From a virus, in IMG/VR virus record IMGVR_UViG_3300021371_000004, positions 1 to 64,000 of that record: a stretch of DNA of 64,000 bases; one strand, written 5' to 3'. The notes below the pieces were generated by a model. That model made no database searches and was not told where the DNA came from. It worked only from the letters and a program-made list of their open reading frames with translations. This document shows positions 8,236 to 30,112 of this stretch, in pieces. Position 1 is the first letter of the stretch. Each line of letters starts with the position of its first letter. The position numbers and the translations under genes are program-made.

Positions 8236-8264
8236 ATTGTAGTTGAACGGGATTGAGATGTCAA
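8236..8264 (-). promoter_or_regulatory. Sigma70-type promoter for the uvsX-41 unit
   Basis: TTGACA (8259-8264), a 17-base spacer (TCTCAATCCCGTTCAAC) and TACAAT (8236-8241). The -35 box overlaps the thyX stop codon. Confidence 0.82.
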
Positions 8265-8932
8265 TAATGCGGATAGATCTGCGCGATTACCTTGGCGCAT
8301 GCCCGAGCAACCAGTATGTGCTCCCGCTGTGTACCGTTAGCACCACGCAGTTCGATATAGTGAATCCAAGAGCGCAGAGTACCATTCATGTACATACGGG
8401 AAACAGTATTTCCTTCGGGCAGTACACAACGTGCTTGTTCCTTGGCGATACCATTTTCAATTGCCCAGTTGTATGCCTTCAAAGACTCATCGATGACACC
8501 CTGTTGCATTGCTTTCCAAGTGGCATCAAGTTCAGAACCTTCTTCCAGTTCTACGCTGTTCTGCCTGTTCTTCTCGTCCTGTAGTCGGGCATCACGCAAC
8601 ACAAACATCTCATCGCCCATTTGGTCGATGTTAGCATATCTTTGACTGAACTCCTGAAATGAGAAAGACCTGTGGCGCAGTATTTGTCTTGCGATATCGC
8701 GAGTGGTTTCTATTTCTAGACAAGCAGAGACCATCTCAAACGGACTGAAATGTTTGTGGTCGATTAGGTATGCCAGCAACCTTTCGTTGGTGTCGGTGTT
8801 CATCTGGTTTGCTGGGTTTGATACTCTGGCGCAGTATGCAATCAATTCGTCCAGTTGCTTTGGTTCTGCTATGGCGTGGTCTGCATCTGCCCAGTATGGA
8901 CCCTGCGAATAACTCACAAGATTAACTTTCAT
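8261..8932 (-). CDS. thyX: Flavin-dependent thymidylate synthase ThyX
   Basis: A 223-residue enzyme that methylates dUMP to dTMP using methylene-tetrahydrofolate, NADPH and FAD. The ThyX motif RHRx7S is present at residues 86-96 (RHRSFSFQEFS), followed by QRYA. Other family features are the R-Q-I-L helix before it and the late ARCVLPEGN block (substrate binding). The start at 8932 (MKVNLVSYSQ) has GAGG 8 bases upstream and replaces a longer extension. It supplies thymidine nucleotides for phage DNA, which matters if thymine is later modified. Confidence 0.93.
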   Translation of the reverse strand: MKVNLVSYSQGPYWADADHAIAEPKQLDELIAYCARVSNPANQMNTDTNERLLAYLIDHKHFSPFEMVSACLEIETTRDIARQILRHRSFSFQEFSQRYANIDQMGDEMFVLRDARLQDEKNRQNSVELEEGSELDATWKAMQQGVIDESLKAYNWAIENGIAKEQARCVLPEGNTVSRMYMNGTLRSWIHYIELRGANGTQREHILVARACAKVIAQIYPHY

Positions 8933-9164
8933 CGGCGTTTCCTCTCTCATCACATTGAAGGTATTTGTATCGGGATATAGCGTCAATCCTAAATTTCTTC
9001 CATATCTGCATTTGTTTGGTCGTGCCACCCTTTCTACTCAACTCAGTCAGGTGCGTAATTTCCTTCTTCACTTTCTCGCAGTCACTGCTGGTACTGGCAA
9101 ATACTGATTCACACAAAACCATCATGCCATACAAGGCAAGGAAGAACACAATCGCTCTACTCAT
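8922..9164 (-). CDS. Small exported protein with signal peptide
   Basis: An 80-residue protein. MSRAIVFFLALYGMMVLCE is a typical signal peptide, with a likely cut after VFA (about residue 22). The mature part is small, basic and helical with two cysteines (SDCEKV and LQCDERG) that could form a disulphide in the periplasm. The ATG at 9164 follows a GAGGAG site and the stop of the upstream gene by two bases. It could be a periplasmic inhibitor or lysis-related factor, but nothing in it shows this. Confidence 0.6.
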   Translation of the reverse strand: MSRAIVFFLALYGMMVLCESVFASTSSDCEKVKKEITHLTELSRKGGTTKQMQIWKKFRIDAISRYKYLQCDERGNADES

Positions 9165-10097: not shown

Positions 10098-12623
10098 TTA
10101 TCCAAAAAAGTCTTCAAGTGATACTGAATCTTCCTCTTTCCAACCAATCGCCTCGAGTACTGGTCGGACAACAGCAAGGAATGCCTTGTCAAACTGCGTG
10201 TCATAATCGATATACTTGTGCAATCCCAATTCCGGTGGGAGATAGTCAGGAAAGGCGATTACGTTTTCCCTCACTGGGTTTTTCTCATCAAGGTAGATGA
10301 ATTTTATCTTCTCGCCATCCTTGATTATCGTGTTTCTCTTTTCCAACTCATGCTTCTTGATGAGGTTGTTATATAACAGGGAACCACGAACGTGTATGGG
10401 TGTACCCTTCTTGTATATCGTGTCTATGTCCTTCCACTTGGTAACATCAGAAACACCTCGGGGAAACGCGATCTCATGCGGATCCAGTCTGTTGAAGTGT
10501 GAGCGAAACAATTGGATTGCTGTCTGCGTTTCCTTCTCTGTACCGGAGATCATAACCTTGAACAAACCCTTCAGGGCATCACGACAAGAGGCAGGGGTCG
10601 AGGACTTGACTGCCTCAATGCCCATGATCTTCAGTTTAGGTTTGGCATACTGCACACCCTCGTTGTTACGCACGTTGAGGATATAACGCTTCTTGGCGGT
10701 CCAGATACCCGAGTCAGCAATTGCCTCTCGACCCATCACCATCTTGTTCTCATATGCGCTCATGTATGCGGCGAGGTCTTCGTATGATTGGGTGAACAGC
10801 GGCACAAACTTATCATTGCCCATCTGATCAAGCAACTTGACTATCTTCGCCGTGTCGGTCAACCCCATCTTCTTGACCAGTGGACCAAAGTTCACATACA
10901 GCGAGTCAGTGTCCATGGCGACCACATAGTCGAAGTTGTCCGTGCCCACTATCTTGTTCATGTAGTCATTCACTGCGCGTTCTGCCCAGCGTATCGATAA
11001 CTGACCCGACATCGTGATTGCTTCTGCCATGCGGATGTCATAGTACCGAAACCATCTGTTTGCCAACGCGCCATAGAGAGAGTTCATCATGATCTTAATC
11101 GCCATTTGCTGCGAGTCGAGTTTGGCGATATCTTTCTCTGCGGCAGCATCACCTGCCTCCACCCTGCTCTGTAACTGGAGCATGTTCTGCTTTATCTGCT
11201 TTCGCTCGGCATACAGTCCAGAAATGATACTGGGTAGCACACCCTCTTTGCCCTTGCTGAATTGAACACCGTTTGCGGACAATGCATCTTCGGGAGACTC
11301 TGGCGCAGGTCTAGTTTGGTCAAGGCAGTTGTCAACGGTAACGCCCAACGTTCTTGCTTTCAAGATGGTCTCGGGTGACATATTGTACTGCATAATCAAG
11401 TGGGGGTATAGTGAGTTCAAGTCAAACGAGACAATCCAGTCGTGTCGACCCACTTGAGGTTCCTTCACATAACCACCACCGAAGTCCTCTTTGTCATTCT
11501 CTTTCTTGGGAGGTACAACGATCTTGCGCTTACACAGTTCACGATATATGTAAGTGTCCCACAATTGTGTAGTACCAAACGAGTCTTGATAGTTACACCC
11601 ACCCTTGTATGCGATGGTCATTGCCAGTTCAATGAGTCCGATCTTGTCATCCAGTTTCTCAACCAGCAGAACGTCCTTGATGTTATAATCAATGAACTTT
11701 TGATAGTCCTCCTTGTATAGGGTGAACAGGTTGCCGTGTTCCTCGTAAGAGAGTTTCTTCTCGCCGAGTACCACGTTGGCAATGTGATCAAGTTTGTAGG
11801 ATTCTTGTACGCCATATATCAGGTTGCCAAACTTCTGGAACAACTCATAGTAATCCAGTTGCTCAATACCAACCATGTCATAGGTCTGTTGCTTGCGCCC
11901 ATGTCCCGTGGATATATTCTTCTCACGGACAGTATTCCATGGCGACATCTTCTTGTATGTGTCACCACCAATCATGCGCTTCATGCGATTGATAAGGTAT
12001 GGGAAATCAAACCCGCGACAGTTCCAACCAGTGACAACGTCAGGGCAGGTATCCTTGCCGCTCCAGAAGTTCACAAACTTCAACAGCAAGTCAACCTCGC
12101 CATCGCACTTGATGTACTTGATGTCAGCAGGGTCAATGTCAAGGTGCTTCGTACTGGCAGCAGGGTCATACTGGTCAAGGAGTGCCCACACATAGACGGT
12201 GGGATGACCATGATACTTCAGGCAGATAGACTGGACAACGCGGAGCGCATCTTCGGGTTCGGGAAACCCATCCTCACTCTCGACCTCGATGTCTATGTCA
12301 GCAACGAGAACATGCGCTGGGTCAAATTCTATTTGGTTGGGAAATTTGTCTTGGATGTACTGGGCAGCAAAGTTGTTATTGCCGTGTGCCTCAAGAGAGT
12401 CAACATACTCATATCTCTTGCTGAATTCGGTTGCCTCTTTCATGCTTTCGAAGGAGACAGGTTTGACACCGCGACCATCCATGGTCTTCCATTCGGTGTC
12501 GTTACTGGTTGTCAGGTATAAGACAGGGTCAAACGTGTCACGAAACTGCTCACGAATACCGTTGTCATATCCACGGTAACAGATGTTGTTGCCAATACGA
12601 GATATGTTGGTGTAAAACTTCAT
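10098..12623 (-). CDS. 43: DNA polymerase gp43 (family B)
   Basis: An 841-residue replicative polymerase with proofreading. Exonuclease motifs: DIDIE near residue 111, NCRGFDFPYL, and the third motif near KDVLLVEKLD. Polymerase motifs: A, FDLNSLYPHLI; B, KIMMNSLYGALANR; C, MDTDSLYVNF. All catalytic aspartates are present. The C-terminus ends SLEDFFG, the hydrophobic tail by which T4-type polymerases dock on the gp45 clamp. It has its own promoter at 12649-12677. Length is slightly shorter than T4 gp43 (898). Confidence 0.97.
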   Translation of the reverse strand: MKFYTNISRIGNNICYRGYDNGIREQFRDTFDPVLYLTTSNDTEWKTMDGRGVKPVSFESMKEATEFSKRYEYVDSLEAHGNNNFAAQYIQDKFPNQIEFDPAHVLVADIDIEVESEDGFPEPEDALRVVQSICLKYHGHPTVYVWALLDQYDPAASTKHLDIDPADIKYIKCDGEVDLLLKFVNFWSGKDTCPDVVTGWNCRGFDFPYLINRMKRMIGGDTYKKMSPWNTVREKNISTGHGRKQQTYDMVGIEQLDYYELFQKFGNLIYGVQESYKLDHIANVVLGEKKLSYEEHGNLFTLYKEDYQKFIDYNIKDVLLVEKLDDKIGLIELAMTIAYKGGCNYQDSFGTTQLWDTYIYRELCKRKIVVPPKKENDKEDFGGGYVKEPQVGRHDWIVSFDLNSLYPHLIMQYNMSPETILKARTLGVTVDNCLDQTRPAPESPEDALSANGVQFSKGKEGVLPSIISGLYAERKQIKQNMLQLQSRVEAGDAAAEKDIAKLDSQQMAIKIMMNSLYGALANRWFRYYDIRMAEAITMSGQLSIRWAERAVNDYMNKIVGTDNFDYVVAMDTDSLYVNFGPLVKKMGLTDTAKIVKLLDQMGNDKFVPLFTQSYEDLAAYMSAYENKMVMGREAIADSGIWTAKKRYILNVRNNEGVQYAKPKLKIMGIEAVKSSTPASCRDALKGLFKVMISGTEKETQTAIQLFRSHFNRLDPHEIAFPRGVSDVTKWKDIDTIYKKGTPIHVRGSLLYNNLIKKHELEKRNTIIKDGEKIKFIYLDEKNPVRENVIAFPDYLPPELGLHKYIDYDTQFDKAFLAVVRPVLEAIGWKEEDSVSLEDFFG

Positions 12624-16003: not shown

Positions 16004-16678
16004 TTATCCTTCGTATGTGGATGATTTTTCGAGAGCGATGTAGTAAACCACATCAACAGTTTTGCAAGTGAACTTGCTGATCAAACGCGAGGAAACCTCG
16101 ACGTCATAGTCGCCAGAGATCAACTTCAGGTTGGCGATGTTCATAACAAAGCAGAAATTATCTGACTTTGCTGTTCCTGGAACCGTGATGTTGAACGCAT
16201 TTGAGGTAGCGTCTGTGTTGTCTACAACAGACAACTCAATACCACCCTCGGTCGCGGTCACAGAAACCTTGTCGTGACCCAGTGCTGCTGCTGCGCTTCG
16301 GATGCGCTTGAGCGTTGCTTCGTCCAAGGTGAACGTGACTTCTGCTTCGGGCATCGGAATATCCTTCGCCGGAGAAGTCAGAATACCAGGGTCACTGTAG
16401 AAATACTTGACGCTAGATCGACCAGAGGAATCGGATACCTTGACTGAAGAGTCGCCGAACTCCAACGTTGGAGCATCAACAAGACCAAGCACTGACAGGA
16501 ACTCATTCAGGTTATAAACCCCGACGGTCTTGTCAAACGACTGGTCAAGATTAGCAACCGCCATGACGTTCTTTGCTTCGGCGATAGTCTTGACGACATT
16601 GCCTTCGTTCATCACGATATTGTCTTGGATGGTAGCAAAGTTCTTCAGTACTGCCATCGTGTTTTCATTTAACTGCAT
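16004..16678 (-). CDS. 45: Sliding clamp gp45
   Basis: A 224-residue processivity clamp. It forms a trimeric ring that tethers the polymerase and, in T4, also the late transcription factors gp55 and gp33. Family marks are the N-terminal LNENTMAVLKNFATIQDNIV, the PTLEFGD strand, MPEAEVTFTLDEATLKRI in the middle and the C-terminal VDVVYYIALEKSS. The length equals T4 gp45 (228). It has its own strong promoter at 16721-16749. Confidence 0.95.
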   Translation of the reverse strand: MQLNENTMAVLKNFATIQDNIVMNEGNVVKTIAEAKNVMAVANLDQSFDKTVGVYNLNEFLSVLGLVDAPTLEFGDSSVKVSDSSGRSSVKYFYSDPGILTSPAKDIPMPEAEVTFTLDEATLKRIRSAAAALGHDKVSVTATEGGIELSVVDNTDATSNAFNITVPGTAKSDNFCFVMNIANLKLISGDYDVEVSSRLISKFTCKTVDVVYYIALEKSSTYEG

Positions 16679-21190: not shown

Positions 21191-21745
21191 TCAGGAACTT
21201 ACGCAACCCAGCATATAATCGACAACGATACGTGTGTCATCTGGGGTTTCGTGGGGGAATTGTACCACACATCCCTTTTCAGTACCAAACAGCGTATGCT
21301 GGTCACCGAATTTTTCGAGGATGTTGGTGCACTTGGTGCGGGTTGTCTGGATGAATTTCTCAGACTGTTCAGAACCACGCTGCTTATATCTGCGCTCACG
21401 TTCAGCGTCTGATACGGTCAGGTGGATTATAGTGAGGTCATCACCTGCTGCTGTGAAGAAACCTGCGTTGTTGAGTCGGTCACCTTCGCCAAATATAACT
21501 TCATCCGGTTTGGTTGAGATCCACTCAACTGCTTTTGGTGCTACTGCCATTGAAAGCAGGTCTGTGCCTGAGAAAGTTTTCTCGGGGACATACTTACCAA
21601 GAACTCGAACATTGCCTGATACATGGGTGTCAAGCAGGTCTGTTACTCGCTCCTGTTTCCAGTTCGGACTAAATTCTTCCATGAATTGCTTCATGATGGT
21701 AGACTTACCCGTTCCAGGAATACCCATGATGTATATCAGTTTCAT
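21191..21745 (-). CDS. P-loop kinase, candidate 5-hmdU DNA kinase
   Basis: A 184-residue P-loop kinase. Walker A is at residues 8-16 (GIPGTGKST). Other marks are VIFGEGDRLNNAGFF, IIHLTVSDAERERRYKQRGS and the late FIQTTRTKCTNI. Kinases with the GDR-L-N-x-x-F and R-x-K-x-x-N pattern are found beside candidate amino acid:DNA transferase genes in phages with hypermodified thymine, where they phosphorylate 5-hydroxymethyluracil in DNA. That role is inferred here from motif and context. Its start overlaps the stop of the zinc-ribbon gene (ATGA), making it the last gene of the modification unit. An alternative is a plain nucleotide kinase. Confidence 0.6.
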   Translation of the reverse strand: MKLIYIMGIPGTGKSTIMKQFMEEFSPNWKQERVTDLLDTHVSGNVRVLGKYVPEKTFSGTDLLSMAVAPKAVEWISTKPDEVIFGEGDRLNNAGFFTAAGDDLTIIHLTVSDAERERRYKQRGSEQSEKFIQTTRTKCTNILEKFGDQHTLFGTEKGCVVQFPHETPDDTRIVVDYMLGCVSS

Positions 21746-22035
21746 TGTAAAAAGGACTCCAAAGTTCCTGCGGCGGGGTAGTCTGCCTTTGACACATATC
21801 CTTTTCTGTTATATCCCTTTTCCAGTGCGCGTGCAGTAGTATCATCGTTCCAACAATTACAGCAGTACCCTTCGTGACCTTTGTACTGTTCGCTGATCAG
21901 GAATTCATTTCCACAGGTGCGACAGTCAAACGTGGTCAACATTTCCGTTCCATATAAAGTCATGTGCTTTACCTCAGATGGGGGTGGTACTTCTCTCGAC
22001 TGACGACCGATAACTTGGGAATTCTTACGTTTCAT
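21742..22035 (-). CDS. Zinc-ribbon protein with clamp-like C-terminal tail
   Basis: A 97-residue protein. CRTCGNEF and GYCCNCWND (two CxxC pairs) form a zinc ribbon at about residues 40-65. The N-terminus is basic (MKRKNSQVIGRQSR). The C-terminus ends AAGTLESFLQ, like the tails of gp43 (SLEDFFG) and the TET/JBP protein (GTLDEFFG). The ATG at 22035 has GGAG 7 bases upstream. It lies directly behind a strong promoter and overlaps the kinase gene. I infer a DNA- or clamp-binding accessory factor of the modification system. Confidence 0.6.
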   Translation of the reverse strand: MKRKNSQVIGRQSREVPPPSEVKHMTLYGTEMLTTFDCRTCGNEFLISEQYKGHEGYCCNCWNDDTTARALEKGYNRKGYVSKADYPAAGTLESFLQ

Positions 22036-22061
22036 ATAGGTTCTCCACAATTTGATATCCT

Positions 22062-22090
22062 ATTCTAACCGAAACAGAATAGGGTGTCAA
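22062..22090 (-). promoter_or_regulatory. Sigma70-type promoter for zinc-ribbon and kinase genes
   Basis: TTGACA (22085-22090), 17 bases, TAGAAT (22062-22067) on the minus strand, seven bases after the stop codon of the transferase gene. It splits the modification cluster into two transcription units. Confidence 0.82.
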
Positions 22091-22097
22091 CAACTCA

Positions 22098-23090
22098 TTA
22101 TGCAAAGAATGCCTCGAGTCCACCAGCGTTTCGGTCTACTGGTTCAAAGTTGCCTGTATCCAAAAACAGGTTATATAATTCAGGGTCAATCAGGTCTGTC
22201 AACCATTTCTCTTCCAGACACTCTCGCCTTGCTTGCCACAAGGGTTCCCAGTCTATACCTTCCCACTTATCTGCCTGAACTTTCTTGATCTCTTCTGCCT
22301 GTCGGTCAATGTAGAAACCAAGGTAGCGACCACGACTCCGGCGAAACAACTTCTTGAAGGAGCACAGACTGGTTTCCATAGAAAAGAAGTCTGCCTTGTC
22401 GGCAACATGCGGGTAACGTAACTTGACCTCTTGTAGTATCTCCCTGCCATTTGCTTCGAGAAAGTCTATCTGAGTTGCGTCGAGTTTCACTTTGTTCTTC
22501 TTGGAGTCAACCCACTCAGGTTTGTCCATGGCATAACACATACCGTTACGGTGCGACTTTGACCCACTGCGGTCATGGAACCAGAGACTATCAACGTCAA
22601 CCTTTATGCCACATGTCTGCTTGAGTGTCTGTATATAAAACCAAGAGGTGTAGCGACCAAACTTGTGCCAAGAGTTGACAGTGTCCCACAAAGAGTAGAA
22701 GTCCTTGACAGGGTCACCAACAAAGTTGGCAGTGATTGCTTCATGCTGTGTACGACCACCAACGAAGTCTCTATACGATTCAAACTGTTGGGGCAGGTGA
22801 CCCTTGTTCCACTTGGTGTCTGTCTGGTAGCGTAGGCGTTTGTAGTTGGCGTTGTTCCAAGAACGCAAACGCTCCAGACCCACCAACTCCATATCTGGAA
22901 ATTCGTTCCAAACAACGTATGAGGTTGGCCAGTAATAGGTAGTGCCATAGATCCAAGAGATCCATAGACGCTGTTCTGTGTTATACTCAAACCGATCAAA
23001 GAAGTAATTCTGTAGGTATAGGGATGGGTCACAGTCCTCTATTTCAAGACCACGACCAAACCACTGAGTGAATATCTCCTTATTGTTCAT
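22098..23090 (-). CDS. Candidate amino acid:DNA transferase (AADT-like)
   Basis: A 330-residue protein rich in tryptophan and tyrosine. The N-terminal part has LWISWIYGTTYYWPTSYVV and EFPDMEL. The middle has FGRYTSWFYIQTLKQTCG, and then a GSKSHRNGMCYAM motif. This W/Y-rich helical layout with FGRY-x-x-x-F and G-S-x-x-x-R-N-G is what I recall for amino acid:DNA transferases and their thymine-pyrophosphorylase relatives, which replace the phosphate on phosphorylated hydroxymethyl-dU with an amine. It ends GGLEAFFA, a clamp-like tail. It overlaps the GNAT gene upstream. The family call is from motif memory and needs profile confirmation. Confidence 0.55.
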   Translation of the reverse strand: MNNKEIFTQWFGRGLEIEDCDPSLYLQNYFFDRFEYNTEQRLWISWIYGTTYYWPTSYVVWNEFPDMELVGLERLRSWNNANYKRLRYQTDTKWNKGHLPQQFESYRDFVGGRTQHEAITANFVGDPVKDFYSLWDTVNSWHKFGRYTSWFYIQTLKQTCGIKVDVDSLWFHDRSGSKSHRNGMCYAMDKPEWVDSKKNKVKLDATQIDFLEANGREILQEVKLRYPHVADKADFFSMETSLCSFKKLFRRSRGRYLGFYIDRQAEEIKKVQADKWEGIDWEPLWQARRECLEEKWLTDLIDPELYNLFLDTGNFEPVDRNAGGLEAFFA

Positions 23091-23737
23091 AGAAACGCAT
23101 CCAAAGAGAAGTGTGTCGGTTCAAATAGTGTTTCGCGCATCCAGTATTCTCCCACTGACTCAATGGCAGTCTCGACCTTTTCGGTTTTCTTGACACCAAA
23201 GTTGTGGGACTCAAGGGATTCTTCCTTCAGTTTTTCTGCTACCTTGCTTGGCGGGATAGCAACAGAAGGATCCTTCAATGCAAGTTCACGAAACGTCAAC
23301 TGCTCATGTTGGTTCGGGAATATAGGCACGTCACAACGCAGAGAACCAGATGGGTCAACTGCCCAGAAGATGGTGCCATTACGTTTGTGCCATGTAACAG
23401 AAGATGGGGTACAGGACATCTTGAGTCTCTGCATGCCTTGGTTATGCGCCTCTTCCATCACCTTCCAGTATACTTCGGAAGCATAACCTTGCCCCTCCTC
23501 TCCTTCGAGGGTTACTATCTCATACAGGTTGGCATACTTTGACCGCGCACTGAATGTGATGAACACCAGAGCAACCGGATCAATTCCACCTTCCATCAAA
23601 GCAAACGGTGGTTGCTTCACATAGTTCTTGAACCGAAACCAGAGGTTGTGTGAAGACTTCAGGAACTTCGTGTTTGTTCCTTCTGGTTGGGAAGCAATGA
23701 GCGTTTCCACTTCTTCTTTGTTAAGTCGCTTTAGCAT
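23087..23737 (-). CDS. GNAT-like acetyltransferase of the modification operon
   Basis: A 216-residue protein. The GNAT core is at about residues 48-130: VALVFITFS, then LYEIVTLEGEEGQGYASEVY (acetyl-CoA loop, x-x-G-x-G-Y/x-A), a helix (VMEEAHNQGMQRLKM) and HKRNGTIFWAV, where the family has a Y/F-x-x-x-GF end. The C-terminal 70 residues are a charged helical tail ending FSLDAFL, similar to clamp-binding tails. In modified phages such enzymes can acetylate amine-bearing bases; that substrate is an inference. It overlaps both neighbours by 4-7 bases. Confidence 0.6.
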   Translation of the reverse strand: MLKRLNKEEVETLIASQPEGTNTKFLKSSHNLWFRFKNYVKQPPFALMEGGIDPVALVFITFSARSKYANLYEIVTLEGEEGQGYASEVYWKVMEEAHNQGMQRLKMSCTPSSVTWHKRNGTIFWAVDPSGSLRCDVPIFPNQHEQLTFRELALKDPSVAIPPSKVAEKLKEESLESHNFGVKKTEKVETAIESVGEYWMRETLFEPTHFSLDAFL

Positions 23738-24408
23738 GGTTGCAGATCTGCCAGTTCTGGGTCAAAGTATGTTCTATCCATATGTAGACCGAACCCACCG
23801 AAAGTATATTTGACAAGAGGTTCGCAACTGGAAACGTTATCAGTAATTCCTGCTCTTCGGAGAATATCTCTCGTAGAAGCAAACACCATTCCGTTTTTCC
23901 GGTTCGCCATCCAAAGTGGACGTTCATGATTACGAAACGCAGACAGTTCTCCGCCATCGATAGCAACAACTGCCATGCTTCGGTCACGGTACTTTTCGAG
24001 AGGAGTATCTCCTGCTTCGATACAACGCAGTATCAACTCAGAATCGTTCAGTGTTTCTGTTTCATATTCCCATATGTCAGGGTCTTGAGAAATAACTCCG
24101 TTGTGGGCAATTGCTGTTTCTCTGCCCTGAAACGGTTGGTTGTATCGCAGGTCAGAAGTTGAGTATCGGATATGCCCAATCATGGTCATCTTCTGTGTAG
24201 CAGGGTCAACAAACTCACGAGGGTCATACTTCTCGATAAATTCATAAGCAGCAATTGGTTCTTTGTGCGTATGTAGTTTGCCGCAGGAAAGGTATGTGAC
24301 TCCCGTGGCATGCTTACCACGAATCATACTTTCCCTGAACAAACGCTTGACCATCTCGAGGTCTTCCGCGTAGACTTCTTCTAGGTGTACACCAATTACT
24401 CCGCACAT
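23731..24408 (-). CDS. Class II glutamine amidotransferase (stand-alone Ntn domain)
   Basis: A 225-residue protein starting MCGVIGV, where removal of Met exposes the catalytic Cys. Other family motifs in order are RGKHATGV, GHIRYSTSD, AIAHNGVI, NDSELIL and SMAVVAID. The enzyme splits glutamine to glutamate and ammonia and normally passes ammonia to a fused synthase domain. No synthase domain is attached, so ammonia would go to a partner, perhaps the AADT-like protein. The ATG at 24408 is chosen because only this start puts Cys at position 2; a longer frame starts at 24423. Confidence 0.85.
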   Translation of the reverse strand: MCGVIGVHLEEVYAEDLEMVKRLFRESMIRGKHATGVTYLSCGKLHTHKEPIAAYEFIEKYDPREFVDPATQKMTMIGHIRYSTSDLRYNQPFQGRETAIAHNGVISQDPDIWEYETETLNDSELILRCIEAGDTPLEKYRDRSMAVVAIDGGELSAFRNHERPLWMANRKNGMVFASTRDILRRAGITDNVSSCEPLVKYTFGGFGLHMDRTYFDPELADLQPC

Positions 24409-24584
24409 GGTATTTCTATCCATTTGTATATGAATTTGGGATACACAAATAACGCCTTACGATAAGTGTATGTCCCTGTGTGTAAGTGTATGCCATTCTT
24501 CGTGAGAGGATTTGAACCAATGGCGATCTCTTTGTAGAAAGAGATTGTGCCGTTTTTATTCTCATGGTACCAGATCTGCTTCAC
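24396..24584 (-). CDS. Hypothetical small protein (62 aa)
   Basis: Starts MKQIWYHENKNGTISFYKEI, with later THTG-like turns (HLHTGTYTYRKALF). It looks like a small beta-rich protein. Its start overlaps the upstream gene (ATGA) and its end overlaps the amidotransferase start region. It is probably a real operon member, but no function can be seen. Confidence 0.55.
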   Translation of the reverse strand: MKQIWYHENKNGTISFYKEIAIGSNPLTKNGIHLHTGTYTYRKALFVYPKFIYKWIEIPCAE

Positions 24585-24853
24585 TTTTCTTCTTCCAAAT
24601 CATGGACGTGGAGTGCAATCAAACCGTAGTGGAGAACTTTCAGCAAGTCCTTTCGGTTCTTACCCTCTTTCTTACCGTACCGTTGGGTGTACTTGATGAC
24701 GTTTCCTAAACAGAAACCCTCTCCATGACCCGCATCGATAACAAACTCGGTTGTCTGGACTTTGTCCTGCGAGTAGTGTTGTCCATAAGTAATGTCAACA
24801 TAATCTCGGAGTTCTTTGATCAGGGCATCTTCGTTATATTTGTAATCGATCAT
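24581..24853 (-). CDS. DUF3310 family protein
   Basis: A 90-residue protein. The family pattern is present: FCLGNVIKYTQRYGKKEGK, then RKDLLKVLHYGLIAL. DUF3310 proteins are widespread in phages and often labelled nucleotide kinases, but they lack a P-loop and their role is unknown. They resemble MazG-type helices in their E/K-rich pattern. The ATG at 24853 (MIDYKYNEDAL) lies 7 bases after the dioxygenase stop. It lies inside the modification operon. Confidence 0.75.
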   Translation of the reverse strand: MIDYKYNEDALIKELRDYVDITYGQHYSQDKVQTTEFVIDAGHGEGFCLGNVIKYTQRYGKKEGKNRKDLLKVLHYGLIALHVHDLEEEK

Positions 24854-24860
24854 ATCATTC

Positions 24861-26258
24861 CTATCCAAAAAATTCATCAAGAGTACCAGCAACATCGAAC
24901 GACTCAGGGTGATACTTGCGAGTCATCTCCTCACCACCGTTGTCTGTCAACCAGTCGTACCATTCATTGTCGTCCCACATGCTCGGTGATACACCGTTCC
25001 AGTATGGTCGCCACAGTTTGTGTTCTTCGTTCAGTCGACGCGAGTCAACGTATGCTCGGCGCAGATGCTCATATTCCCATGTACCCAACTTCAACATATC
25101 TTCTCGGAAGTAGAATACAAGGGACATACGCATCAGGTCATCTTCGCCAGAGTCTGGTGCTTCAATTGGGGTGTTGGCGTGGATGACGCGCATGTTGTCA
25201 ACCAACAGTAAGTCGCCTGGGCGGATATTGATAGCAGCGCGAACTTCTGGGCAGACCAACATGCCGCCTTTCCAGTCTTTCTTACCATCACTTATCACAG
25301 TCAGGTTGCTGAAACCTTCGTTCAACGAACCAGAGTCACGGTGACATGCCATACGTGCATTGCGTTCCTTTGTTGTCGTGTTTACCGTAATGGTAGTGAA
25401 CGTTGTGTCCTCTCCAATCAGAAACTTTGGATCCATTCGGTCAGCGCATTTCTTCTGACGACCATAGCGCACAGGCAGTAGTTCGGCAAAGGTTGCGTCT
25501 AATCGACGAGCAAATGGATAGCATTTCTCAAATACTTCGCGATTATGATCGGTGAAAGCAGTAGCACGACCATAAGGTATGCGAGGATAACGACCATAGA
25601 AACCAGCAATGCCAGACCATATTGCGGTAGCGTACATAGTATCGGAAATAAAGTCCTTGCGCAGAAGTTGTACATATGCCTTTGCTTCCTCGAGAGTCAT
25701 AACTCGCAGTTTGTTCAGTAGTATTGGAAAGAAATCAGTGTAAGTCCCAAACTCTGGTTCAACTTTGGTGCGCAACCAAACGCCACCACGGTTTTCATCG
25801 TCGTTGGGGATAGCAGCAAACTCGGCGAGTGGATCAGAACCGTCGATGTTGGGCGGTTGCCCTTCTTCAAACCAACGCAGAACGTTCAGTTGGTATTGCG
25901 TTACCCAGTCACGGTTGCCTTGAGATTCTTCTCTTGGACCCGCTGCCATGCCTCTGTTGTTTGACTCAATTGCTGCGTCAAACAGACCAGCGTATGCACC
26001 GTCTTGTTCTGCTTGAGTGAATACGTTTTTACGGAATTTAAACGCGATACGGTCTTCAGAAAGTTCCTCGTCTTCAACGCCCATGGAAGGCATATAGAAG
26101 TCCGCATCGGAGTCAACGACGATGTCATAGTGACTTTCGTCTGGATATTGCCCCTTGAGTGCTTCTGAATCTTCGAGAAACAAGGCGACATACACGTCCT
26201 GCCCCTCTGAACCAGTGCTCTTTTGCCAAGAACGACCGCCTATTTGTACTGTTTCCAT
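24861..26258 (-). CDS. TET/JBP-like 2OG-Fe(II) DNA dioxygenase
   Basis: A 465-residue enzyme. The iron and 2-oxoglutarate ligands are visible in the C-terminal half: H306-x-D308 in ACHRDSGSLNEG, H360 in RVIHANTP and R377 in LMRMSLVFYF. The run HRDSGSxNEGFSNLTV is typical of the TET/JBP branch, which oxidises the methyl group of thymine (JBP) or 5-methylcytosine (TET) in DNA. Next to a kinase and a transferase candidate, hydroxylation of thymine is the more likely reaction; no cytosine methyltransferase is seen. The protein ends GTLDEFFG, nearly the same as the clamp-binding end of gp43. Residues 1-280 are family-specific or unknown. First gene after a strong promoter. Confidence 0.8.
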   Translation of the reverse strand: METVQIGGRSWQKSTGSEGQDVYVALFLEDSEALKGQYPDESHYDIVVDSDADFYMPSMGVEDEELSEDRIAFKFRKNVFTQAEQDGAYAGLFDAAIESNNRGMAAGPREESQGNRDWVTQYQLNVLRWFEEGQPPNIDGSDPLAEFAAIPNDDENRGGVWLRTKVEPEFGTYTDFFPILLNKLRVMTLEEAKAYVQLLRKDFISDTMYATAIWSGIAGFYGRYPRIPYGRATAFTDHNREVFEKCYPFARRLDATFAELLPVRYGRQKKCADRMDPKFLIGEDTTFTTITVNTTTKERNARMACHRDSGSLNEGFSNLTVISDGKKDWKGGMLVCPEVRAAINIRPGDLLLVDNMRVIHANTPIEAPDSGEDDLMRMSLVFYFREDMLKLGTWEYEHLRRAYVDSRRLNEEHKLWRPYWNGVSPSMWDDNEWYDWLTDNGGEEMTRKYHPESFDVAGTLDEFFG

Positions 26259-29524: not shown

Positions 29525-30112
29525 TTATTCCTCGAAGAAATTAGAGAGGTCTGAGTCGACACGCACAGTGCGTTTCGTCTTCATAACCTTCTTGTGCTCT
29601 TTGACCTTTTCGTCTTTCTCCTTGACGTCATCTATCCTTCTTCGCAGGTTATCGACAAAGGACTGAACTGCCTTGGCGACCTGCGGGTCTTCATCGGCAT
29701 CAATCATGAACTCTTCGAGTCCTGACTCTGCCAGATAATTCATTTTAACTTCCTGCTGCCTTTGTTCTTTCTTGATGCGCCGAAGGAATGCATACCAAGA
29801 GATCTGGGTGAAGTACCCAAACGCATTTGGTTTACCCTTGCGTGTTGCTGCTTCAACGTCATAGTTCTTGCATGCACGGAGGCAATTCTCAACAGCATCC
29901 ATTACCATCTCTTCACGGTAGGTGTAACGAACAAAGTTGGATTTGTGAGAAAGACCCTCTGCGATTTTGAGAAAACACTCGGCAACGTAGGTGGGCATGA
30001 TGGGCGGCACAACCCCATCATTGTCTGCTTTATTGACAGCGGTGACATGGTCAACAACTGCCTGTGAGAACTGTGCATTGTTGACGTAATGCGGACGTTC
30101 ACTTGGTTTCAT
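29525..30112 (-). CDS. 55: Late-transcription sigma factor gp55
   Basis: A 195-residue sigma factor that directs host RNA polymerase to late promoters and contacts gp45. The sigma region-2 like core spans FVRYTYREEMVMDAVENCLRA and PNAFGYFTQISWYAFLRRIK. The C-terminal part is charged and ends SDLSNFFEE, the hydrophobic tail that in T4 gp55 binds the sliding clamp. Late promoters of the TATAAATA type lie before virion genes in this window. It ends 2 bases before gp47. Confidence 0.93.
   Translation of the reverse strand: MKPSERPHYVNNAQFSQAVVDHVTAVNKADNDGVVPPIMPTYVAECFLKIAEGLSHKSNFVRYTYREEMVMDAVENCLRACKNYDVEAATRKGKPNAFGYFTQISWYAFLRRIKKEQRQQEVKMNYLAESGLEEFMIDADEDPQVAKAVQSFVDNLRRRIDDVKEKDEKVKEHKKVMKTKRTVRVDSDLSNFFEE

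Follow-up and report, generated by a model that had tools for sequence, protein, structure and literature searches.

Proposed Clamp-Binding Motifs and Phage DNA Modification

In bacteriophage T4, the C-termini by which gp43, gp55, and gp33 bind the sliding clamp gp45 are highly similar and can replace one another, and the T4 ligase also has a sliding clamp-binding motif (SCBM) (PMC2988020; PMC7892883). Here, we describe similar C-terminal tails on DNA-modification enzymes encoded by bases 1-64,000 (the window) of the 99,048-base virus record IMGVR_UViG_3300021371_000004, and on their homologues in other phages. Like the T4 SCBMs (SLDFLFG, SLDFLYEAND), these tails are short hydrophobic terminal peptides on a flexible linker. 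Unlike T4 gp43, gp55, gp33, and ligase, their carriers are dioxygenases, amino acid:DNA transferases, DNA kinases, glycosyltransferases, and an adenine methyltransferase. Judging from sequence comparisons, we put at roughly 0.84 the probability that the tails are SCBMs, which would dock the modification enzymes on the phage gp45 and confine modification to replicating phage DNA.

One hypermodification enzyme of a phage, the T4 alpha-glucosyltransferase, is already known to bind gp45 (Sommer, 2004, as cited and reproduced in a 2026 paper, PMC13216743), so the original prediction, which knew of no described example, was mistaken on this point. The published hypothesis for this enzyme is likewise that modification is concomitant with replication; it differs in being a single enzyme without a SLDFLF-type tail, and the binding proposed here is predicted. 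The thymidine hypermodification systems of ViI, phiW-14, and M6 (HMUD kinase, ADDT) use the same enzyme families as those considered below (PF18747, PF18723, and PF18724), and no description of clamp tails on HMUD kinase or ADDT-type enzymes was found in full-text searches of the open literature, the main pathway papers being outside their scope. In eukaryotes, DNMT1 binds PCNA by means of a PIP box, and is thus also a DNA-modifying enzyme tethered to a replication clamp via a short motif. However, DNMT1 is one maintenance methylation enzyme, whereas several unrelated de novo hypermodification enzymes are concerned here, in phages. What is new is the tail code, together with the range of unrelated enzymes to which it extends.

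C-Terminal Tails in the Modification Operon

Every window gene considered here is on the minus strand. The operon contains, in order, the genes for TET/JBP (24861-26258), DUF3310, a 62-amino acid (aa) open reading frame (ORF), GATase_6, GNAT, ADDT, a zinc-ribbon protein, and Ploopntkinase3. Four of these products share the C-terminal consensus [STG]L[DE]xF(F/L), which resembles the ends of gp43 and gp55 of the same phage. The 465-aa TET/JBP 2-oxoglutarate-Fe(II) dioxygenase (Tet_JBP, PF12851, E 6e-16) ends in AGTLDEFFG, with the putative docking tail GTLDEFFG at 24864-24887. The 330-aa ADDT-like amino acid:DNA transferase (22098-23090), which belongs to the ADDT domain family by its match to PF18724 (E 2.6e-23, 83 bits against a cut-off of 26), ends in AGGLEAFFA (putative tail GGLEAFFA, 22101-22124). 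The 216-aa GNAT-family protein (23087-23737) ends in HFSLDAFL (putative tail FSLDAFL, 23090-23110); its match to PF00583 (E 3.8e-4, 21.1 bits) is barely above the cut-off of 20.7. The fourth is a 102-aa zinc-ribbon-like protein (21742-22050, with a TTG start as called), which has CxxC...CxxC in its translation, gave no match above cut-off in family searches (Pfam, PHROG), and ends in AGTLESFLQ (putative tail GTLESFLQ, 21745-21768). As for the two reference proteins, the DNA polymerase gp43 (10098-12623; phrog_262, E 0) closes with VSLEDFFG (tail SLEDFFG, 10101-10121) and the late sigma factor gp55 (29525-30112; phrog_234, E 5e-50) with DSDLSNFFEE (tail DLSNFFEE, 29528-29551). All six of these tails had been quoted in the original prediction, and a check of the sequence found each of them as given. 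The proposed docking partner, gp45, is encoded at 16004-16678 (phrog_223, E 1e-70) and resembles the RB69 (PDB 1b77 and 1b8h) and T4 (1czd and 6drt) clamps with E-values from 1e-24 to 5e-26.

Examination of the remaining operon ends found no tail on GATase_6, a class II glutamine amidotransferase that serves as an internal control (23731-24423; PF13522, E 1e-8), or on the DUF3310 protein (24581-24895; PF11753, E 6e-13), and no convincing one on the Ploopntkinase3 P-loop nucleotide kinase (21191-21745; PF18751, E 4e-19). The window gp33 was considered as an additional carrier and rejected, as it ends in LEKSAQLPVE without the motif.

The strict pattern L[DEGSN].F[FL].{0,2}$ matches 5 of the 76 window genes called automatically by a simple greedy caller, vs. 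0.056 expected from internal positions, a count that is biased if taken alone because the pattern was written after the tails had been seen. The zinc-ribbon gene is a sixth match, which the caller dropped in favor of a longer opposite-strand ORF. A looser C-terminal motif was rejected as unspecific (9 matches vs. 4 expected in the window; 15 vs. 13 in Stenotrophomonas phage DLP6), and strict and polymerase-anchored scoring were therefore adopted.

Conservation among Homologues

Homologues of the window TET were gathered from IMG/VR and from named phages. Nearly all of them, from 93% down to 49% identity, end in [ST]L[DEG]xF(F/L); at the low end are those of DLP6 (ATLGDFFV) and of locus L097 (SLEGFFS). 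Among 39 non-redundant homologues, the tail residues L460, F463, and F464 are conserved at 0.95, 0.97, and 0.90, whereas the linker positions just before them are mostly at 0.28-0.41 and their spacing from the YHP motif also differs. In the AlphaFold model of the window TET, the confidence score (pLDDT) averages 88 and drops to 73 and 63 in the last blocks; the last five residues have a pLDDT of about 63, and a short helix spans residues 460-464. The TET tail is thus a terminal hydrophobic motif beyond the folded domain, preceded by a variable linker, as in an SCBM.

The other carriers behave similarly. [GA]L[EGD]xF is kept in 29/29 non-redundant ADDT homologues of at least 44% identity, [ST]L[DEM]x is present in 18/18 non-redundant GNAT homologues (most with an F(L/F) end), and the two distant relatives of the zinc-ribbon protein found in other TET operons are both tailed (NTLEMFLA and MTLERFFE). 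No tail was found in 28 non-redundant GATase homologues or in 21 homologues of the DUF3310 protein. Four of 30 P-loop kinase homologues fit the loose pattern; these were not accepted as tailed, the two listed having IVSFLLSS-type ends. Loss of the tail in related phages would have spoken against a clamp-docking function, and the TET, ADDT, and GNAT homologues retain it.

A search of 2,142 genes called in the neighborhood of TETs found the strict motif at the end of 136 proteins, where internal positions predict 1.3; this count takes homologues singly and does not represent 136 independent events. The larger tailed clusters are TET (55), GNAT (16), gp55 (15), ADDT (14), and gp43 (12). Further clusters comprise the zinc-ribbon family and glycosyltransferases of two unrelated families, the TET-associated GT-A glycosyltransferases (TAGT, PF20691) and a GT-B glycosyltransferase. 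In phage C48C1, the strict tail is present on only 3 of 204 called genes, which encode the DNA polymerase, a D12 N6-adenine DNA methyltransferase, and the TET. The gene for this D12-class methyltransferase (L001:3898-4782) adjoins the polymerase gene, lies approximately 15 kb from the TET, and its product ends in STLDAFFG, like the polymerase. The TET/JBP dioxygenases of loci L002, L003, and L004 carry the GenBank label "SNF2 DNA repair protein."

TET Fold and Predicted Substrate

Foldseek matches of the TET model include NgTET1 (E 3e-9), TET2 (E 3e-8), CcTET, and CMD1. His306, Asp308, and His360 are invariant across 37 TET sequences and would be the iron ligands (HxD...H) of the enzyme. Its Tet_JBP domain, fold, and HxD...H motif place the protein in the TET/JBP family, and it is predicted to be the first enzyme of the modification pathway. 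A C5-methyltransferase (PF00145) was not found in the phage's own record or in seven related records, including the complete C48C1, DLP6, and Cr30. A 5-methylcytosine-type TET pathway fed by a phage methyltransferase was consequently not favored, and thymine is probably the substrate. A Thy1/ThyX thymidylate synthase (PF02511) is encoded at 8261-9028 of the window, near the polymerase gene, and is in line with a normal dTMP supply ahead of post-replicative modification.

Tails Follow the Polymerase or gp33 of the Same Phage

Homology of ADDT led to the Ackermannviridae and to phiW-14, lineages whose polymerase tails are different. In Vibrio phage 207E48.1 (Ackermannviridae), the polymerase ends in KSKRLW, the HMUD2 kinase in TKRLW, ADDT in TRKLW, HMUDK_hel in TKRLW, and gp33 in KTRKLF. 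When the whole genome is ranked by likeness to the polymerase tail, the top proteins are ADDT, HMUDK_hel, the HMUD2 kinase, and one 99-aa phrog_4789 protein. Salmonella phage Vi01 has a polymerase ending in NLLSMMGKKG, together with HMUD2 (SLLGLMRKA), ADDT (NLMSLLKR), HMUDK_hel (NLLDRLKKPE), and phrog_4789 (NLLSLMRK) proteins, and further IMG/VR loci of the ViI kind agree. In phiW-14, the polymerase ends in KLGAFFV, the kinase (gp36) in GLGGFFKG, an ADDT-type protein in GLGSFFR, and gp33 in SLGGFAAT; gp36 is a candidate 5-hydroxymethyluracil (5hmU)-DNA kinase by its P-loop and position, its Pfam P-loop matches being weak. The corresponding ends in Pseudomonas phage Cygsa01 are SVMDFFS (polymerase), VFDLF, LMGFFQ, and VLDLF (enzymes), and SLTTLFG (gp33). 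Cr30 pairs a DLSSLFD polymerase with a DLSKLF TAGT-like protein, and C48C1 a TLEDFFG polymerase with a TLDAFFG N6-adenine methyltransferase.

When polymerase tails were assigned at random among eight phages, 7 of 40,320 permutations did at least as well as the true assignment (exact p = 1.7e-4, for enzymes picked by the authors, by family). Within the HMUD2, ADDT, and HMUDK_hel families, each compared over three lineages, the phage's own polymerase was the best match in 9/9 comparisons. Both the genome ranking and the permutation are independent of the strict pattern. These data show that, between divergent lineages, the tails track the polymerase or late transcription factor motif of their own phage, with the polymerase of loci L214-L216 as the exception, and the clamp-tail claim also withstood this test of co-variation, which provides its strongest support.

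Other proteins with such ends were noted in the same phages. The small phrog_4789 protein of Ackermannviridae-type phages carries its own polymerase's tail (L150:12652-12951, L153:10555-10767, and L165:10399-10710) and is perhaps an unrecognized clamp client. In phiW-14, polymerase-type tails are found on a DUF4326 protein (GLGAFFT; L172:11570-11887) and a PD-(D/E)XK exonuclease (GLGGFFA; L141:26496-27356). The Cygsa01 large terminase (L160:1-1710) ends in GGSLDDFFNN, and a link from packaging to the clamp is possible.

Presence and Absence of gp45

The clamp gp45 (phrog_223) is present in the phage's own genome and in every tested large record with tailed enzymes. It was not found in Pelagibacter phage HTVC112P, Nonlabens phage P12024L, Mycobacterium phage Zemanar, Synechococcus phage S-CBWM1, or Pseudomonas phage M6. 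Correspondingly, gp45-type tails are absent from the TETs of HTVC112P, P12024L, and S-CBWM1, from the Zemanar ADDT, and from the M6 modification-cluster proteins listed, so that the claim also held in the checked modification enzymes of these five phages.

In P12024L, the TAGT encoded directly after the TET ends in QLEIF, and the neighboring DNA methyltransferase ends in QQTLF (L255:17279-18674). These two are the only beta-clamp-like ends among its 58 called genes (0.4 expected). Two TAGT relatives end in QTQLF and QTTLF, and the DLP6 member of the same TAGT family ends in DLSSFFN. The P12024L tails suggestively resemble host beta-clamp motifs, in one lineage and by comparison with the usual consensus.

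Alternative Explanations

Several observations weigh against docking on gp45 for replication-coupled modification. The motif by itself is no proof, as proteins of the gp26 baseplate hub family also end in DFF. With the first 50 kb of T4 as a positive control, gp43 and gp55 alone score; T4 alpha-glucosyltransferase, beta-glucosyltransferase, and Dam lack such a tail, and clamp tails are thus not universal in T4-like phages. The Cr30 TET ends in GATLF without a clear tail, though Cr30 has gp45, and distant ADDTs (25-30% identity) mostly have no clear tail. In the window phage, C48C1, and DLP6, the tails are too alike, each fitting the polymerases of the others no less than its own, and own-polymerase matching is therefore informative between divergent lineages only. 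In L214-L216, the polymerase ends in VNVFSFIKKKAE or VNVLKFFK and the enzymes in KLW or KRLW, which match gp33 (KKLF, TARLF) instead; a single gp45 may accept two tail types. Lastly, T4 alpha-glucosyltransferase output in vivo does not depend chiefly on gp45 binding (PMC13216743), and replication coupling is accordingly not to be assumed.

In one alternative reading, the tails do bind gp45, but for transcription- or repair-coupled use at parked clamps, nicks, or late promoters. T4 gp45 is a mobile enhancer away from the fork, the same tails occur on gp55 and, in Ackermannviridae-type phages, on gp33, and the tailed phiW-14 proteins include an exonuclease. We nevertheless consider it unlikely, though deserving of some weight, since the tailed enzymes modify bases and are not transcription factors, and since modification would have to keep up with new DNA in order to protect it. 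That the tails instead bind a host factor, be it the beta clamp or some other, is improbable to a far greater degree: phages without their own clamp possibly use that of the host, as the beta-clamp-like ends of the P12024L TAGT and methyltransferase would fit, but the tails of gp45 phages lack the conserved glutamine of the bacterial motif, are the same as the tails of gp43, gp55, and gp33 (which in T4 bind gp45), and accompany gp45 in the phages checked.

The tail is common to several operon enzymes, and could on that account join them into a complex, its likeness to the polymerase being incidental. This is only a shade less improbable than docking on a host factor would be, as the enzyme tails vary together with those of the polymerase or gp33 from one divergent lineage to another and the C48C1 methyltransferase stands next to the polymerase gene, far from the TET. 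Chance or compositional convergence, which might be expected because small phage proteins often have hydrophobic C-termini, can practically be dismissed. The loose motif does have many unrelated matches, and gp26-type baseplate hub proteins end in GLSDFF, GIDDFF, and GMENFFV (L020:17073-17783; L011:44299-45006; L014:37568-38269); the gp26-like protein was rejected as a clamp client despite a high score, because it belongs to a structural family (PF12322). Such convergence would not account for the excess of the strict motif, for its retention after variable linkers, or for the permutation result, and the checked enzymes of gp45-less phages do not have the tail.

Proposed Mechanism and Significance

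The tails are read as clamp-docking because they are conserved, co-vary with the polymerase or gp33, and are absent from the checked enzymes of phages without gp45. According to this proposal, the C-terminal hydrophobic peptide, on its variable linker, would dock TET/JBP, ADDT, GNAT, and the zinc-ribbon protein onto gp45, at the same kind of site as that used by the phage polymerase and gp55. The phage's own loader places gp45 at nicks and primer junctions, and enzymes docked on it would therefore gather on phage DNA that has just been replicated, where thymine would probably be converted to 5hmU and then to aminoacyl-type bases; docking would also keep this chemistry on an ordinary base off the host DNA. 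We infer the gp45 binding, the docking site, the replication coupling, and the host/phage discrimination alike. T4 has its mark at the nucleotide stage already, as hydroxymethyl-dCTP. Thymine-directed chemistry has no such built-in distinction between phage and host, but docking on the clamp could provide it. The effect of tethering may lie in timing or targeting more than in total yield.

A more general rule can be formulated, on which we are evenly divided: hypermodifying enzymes of any fold or chemistry would take on the docking peptide that belongs to the clamp used in replicating the genome, gp45-type or, where the host clamp is used, beta-type QxxLF, so that modification is written on replicating phage DNA and the host is spared.

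If docking on gp45 is correct, it would tie the hypermodification of DNA to the replisome in several lineages of large phages, and would give a physical answer to how enzymes that act on ordinary bases (TET/JBP on thymine, ADDT, and the adenine methyltransferase) promptly modify the phage's own genome and not that of the host. An ending like that of the polymerase may, in addition, serve as a signature that flags unrecognized replisome-docked phage enzymes, such as phrog_4789 and the phiW-14 DUF4326 protein.

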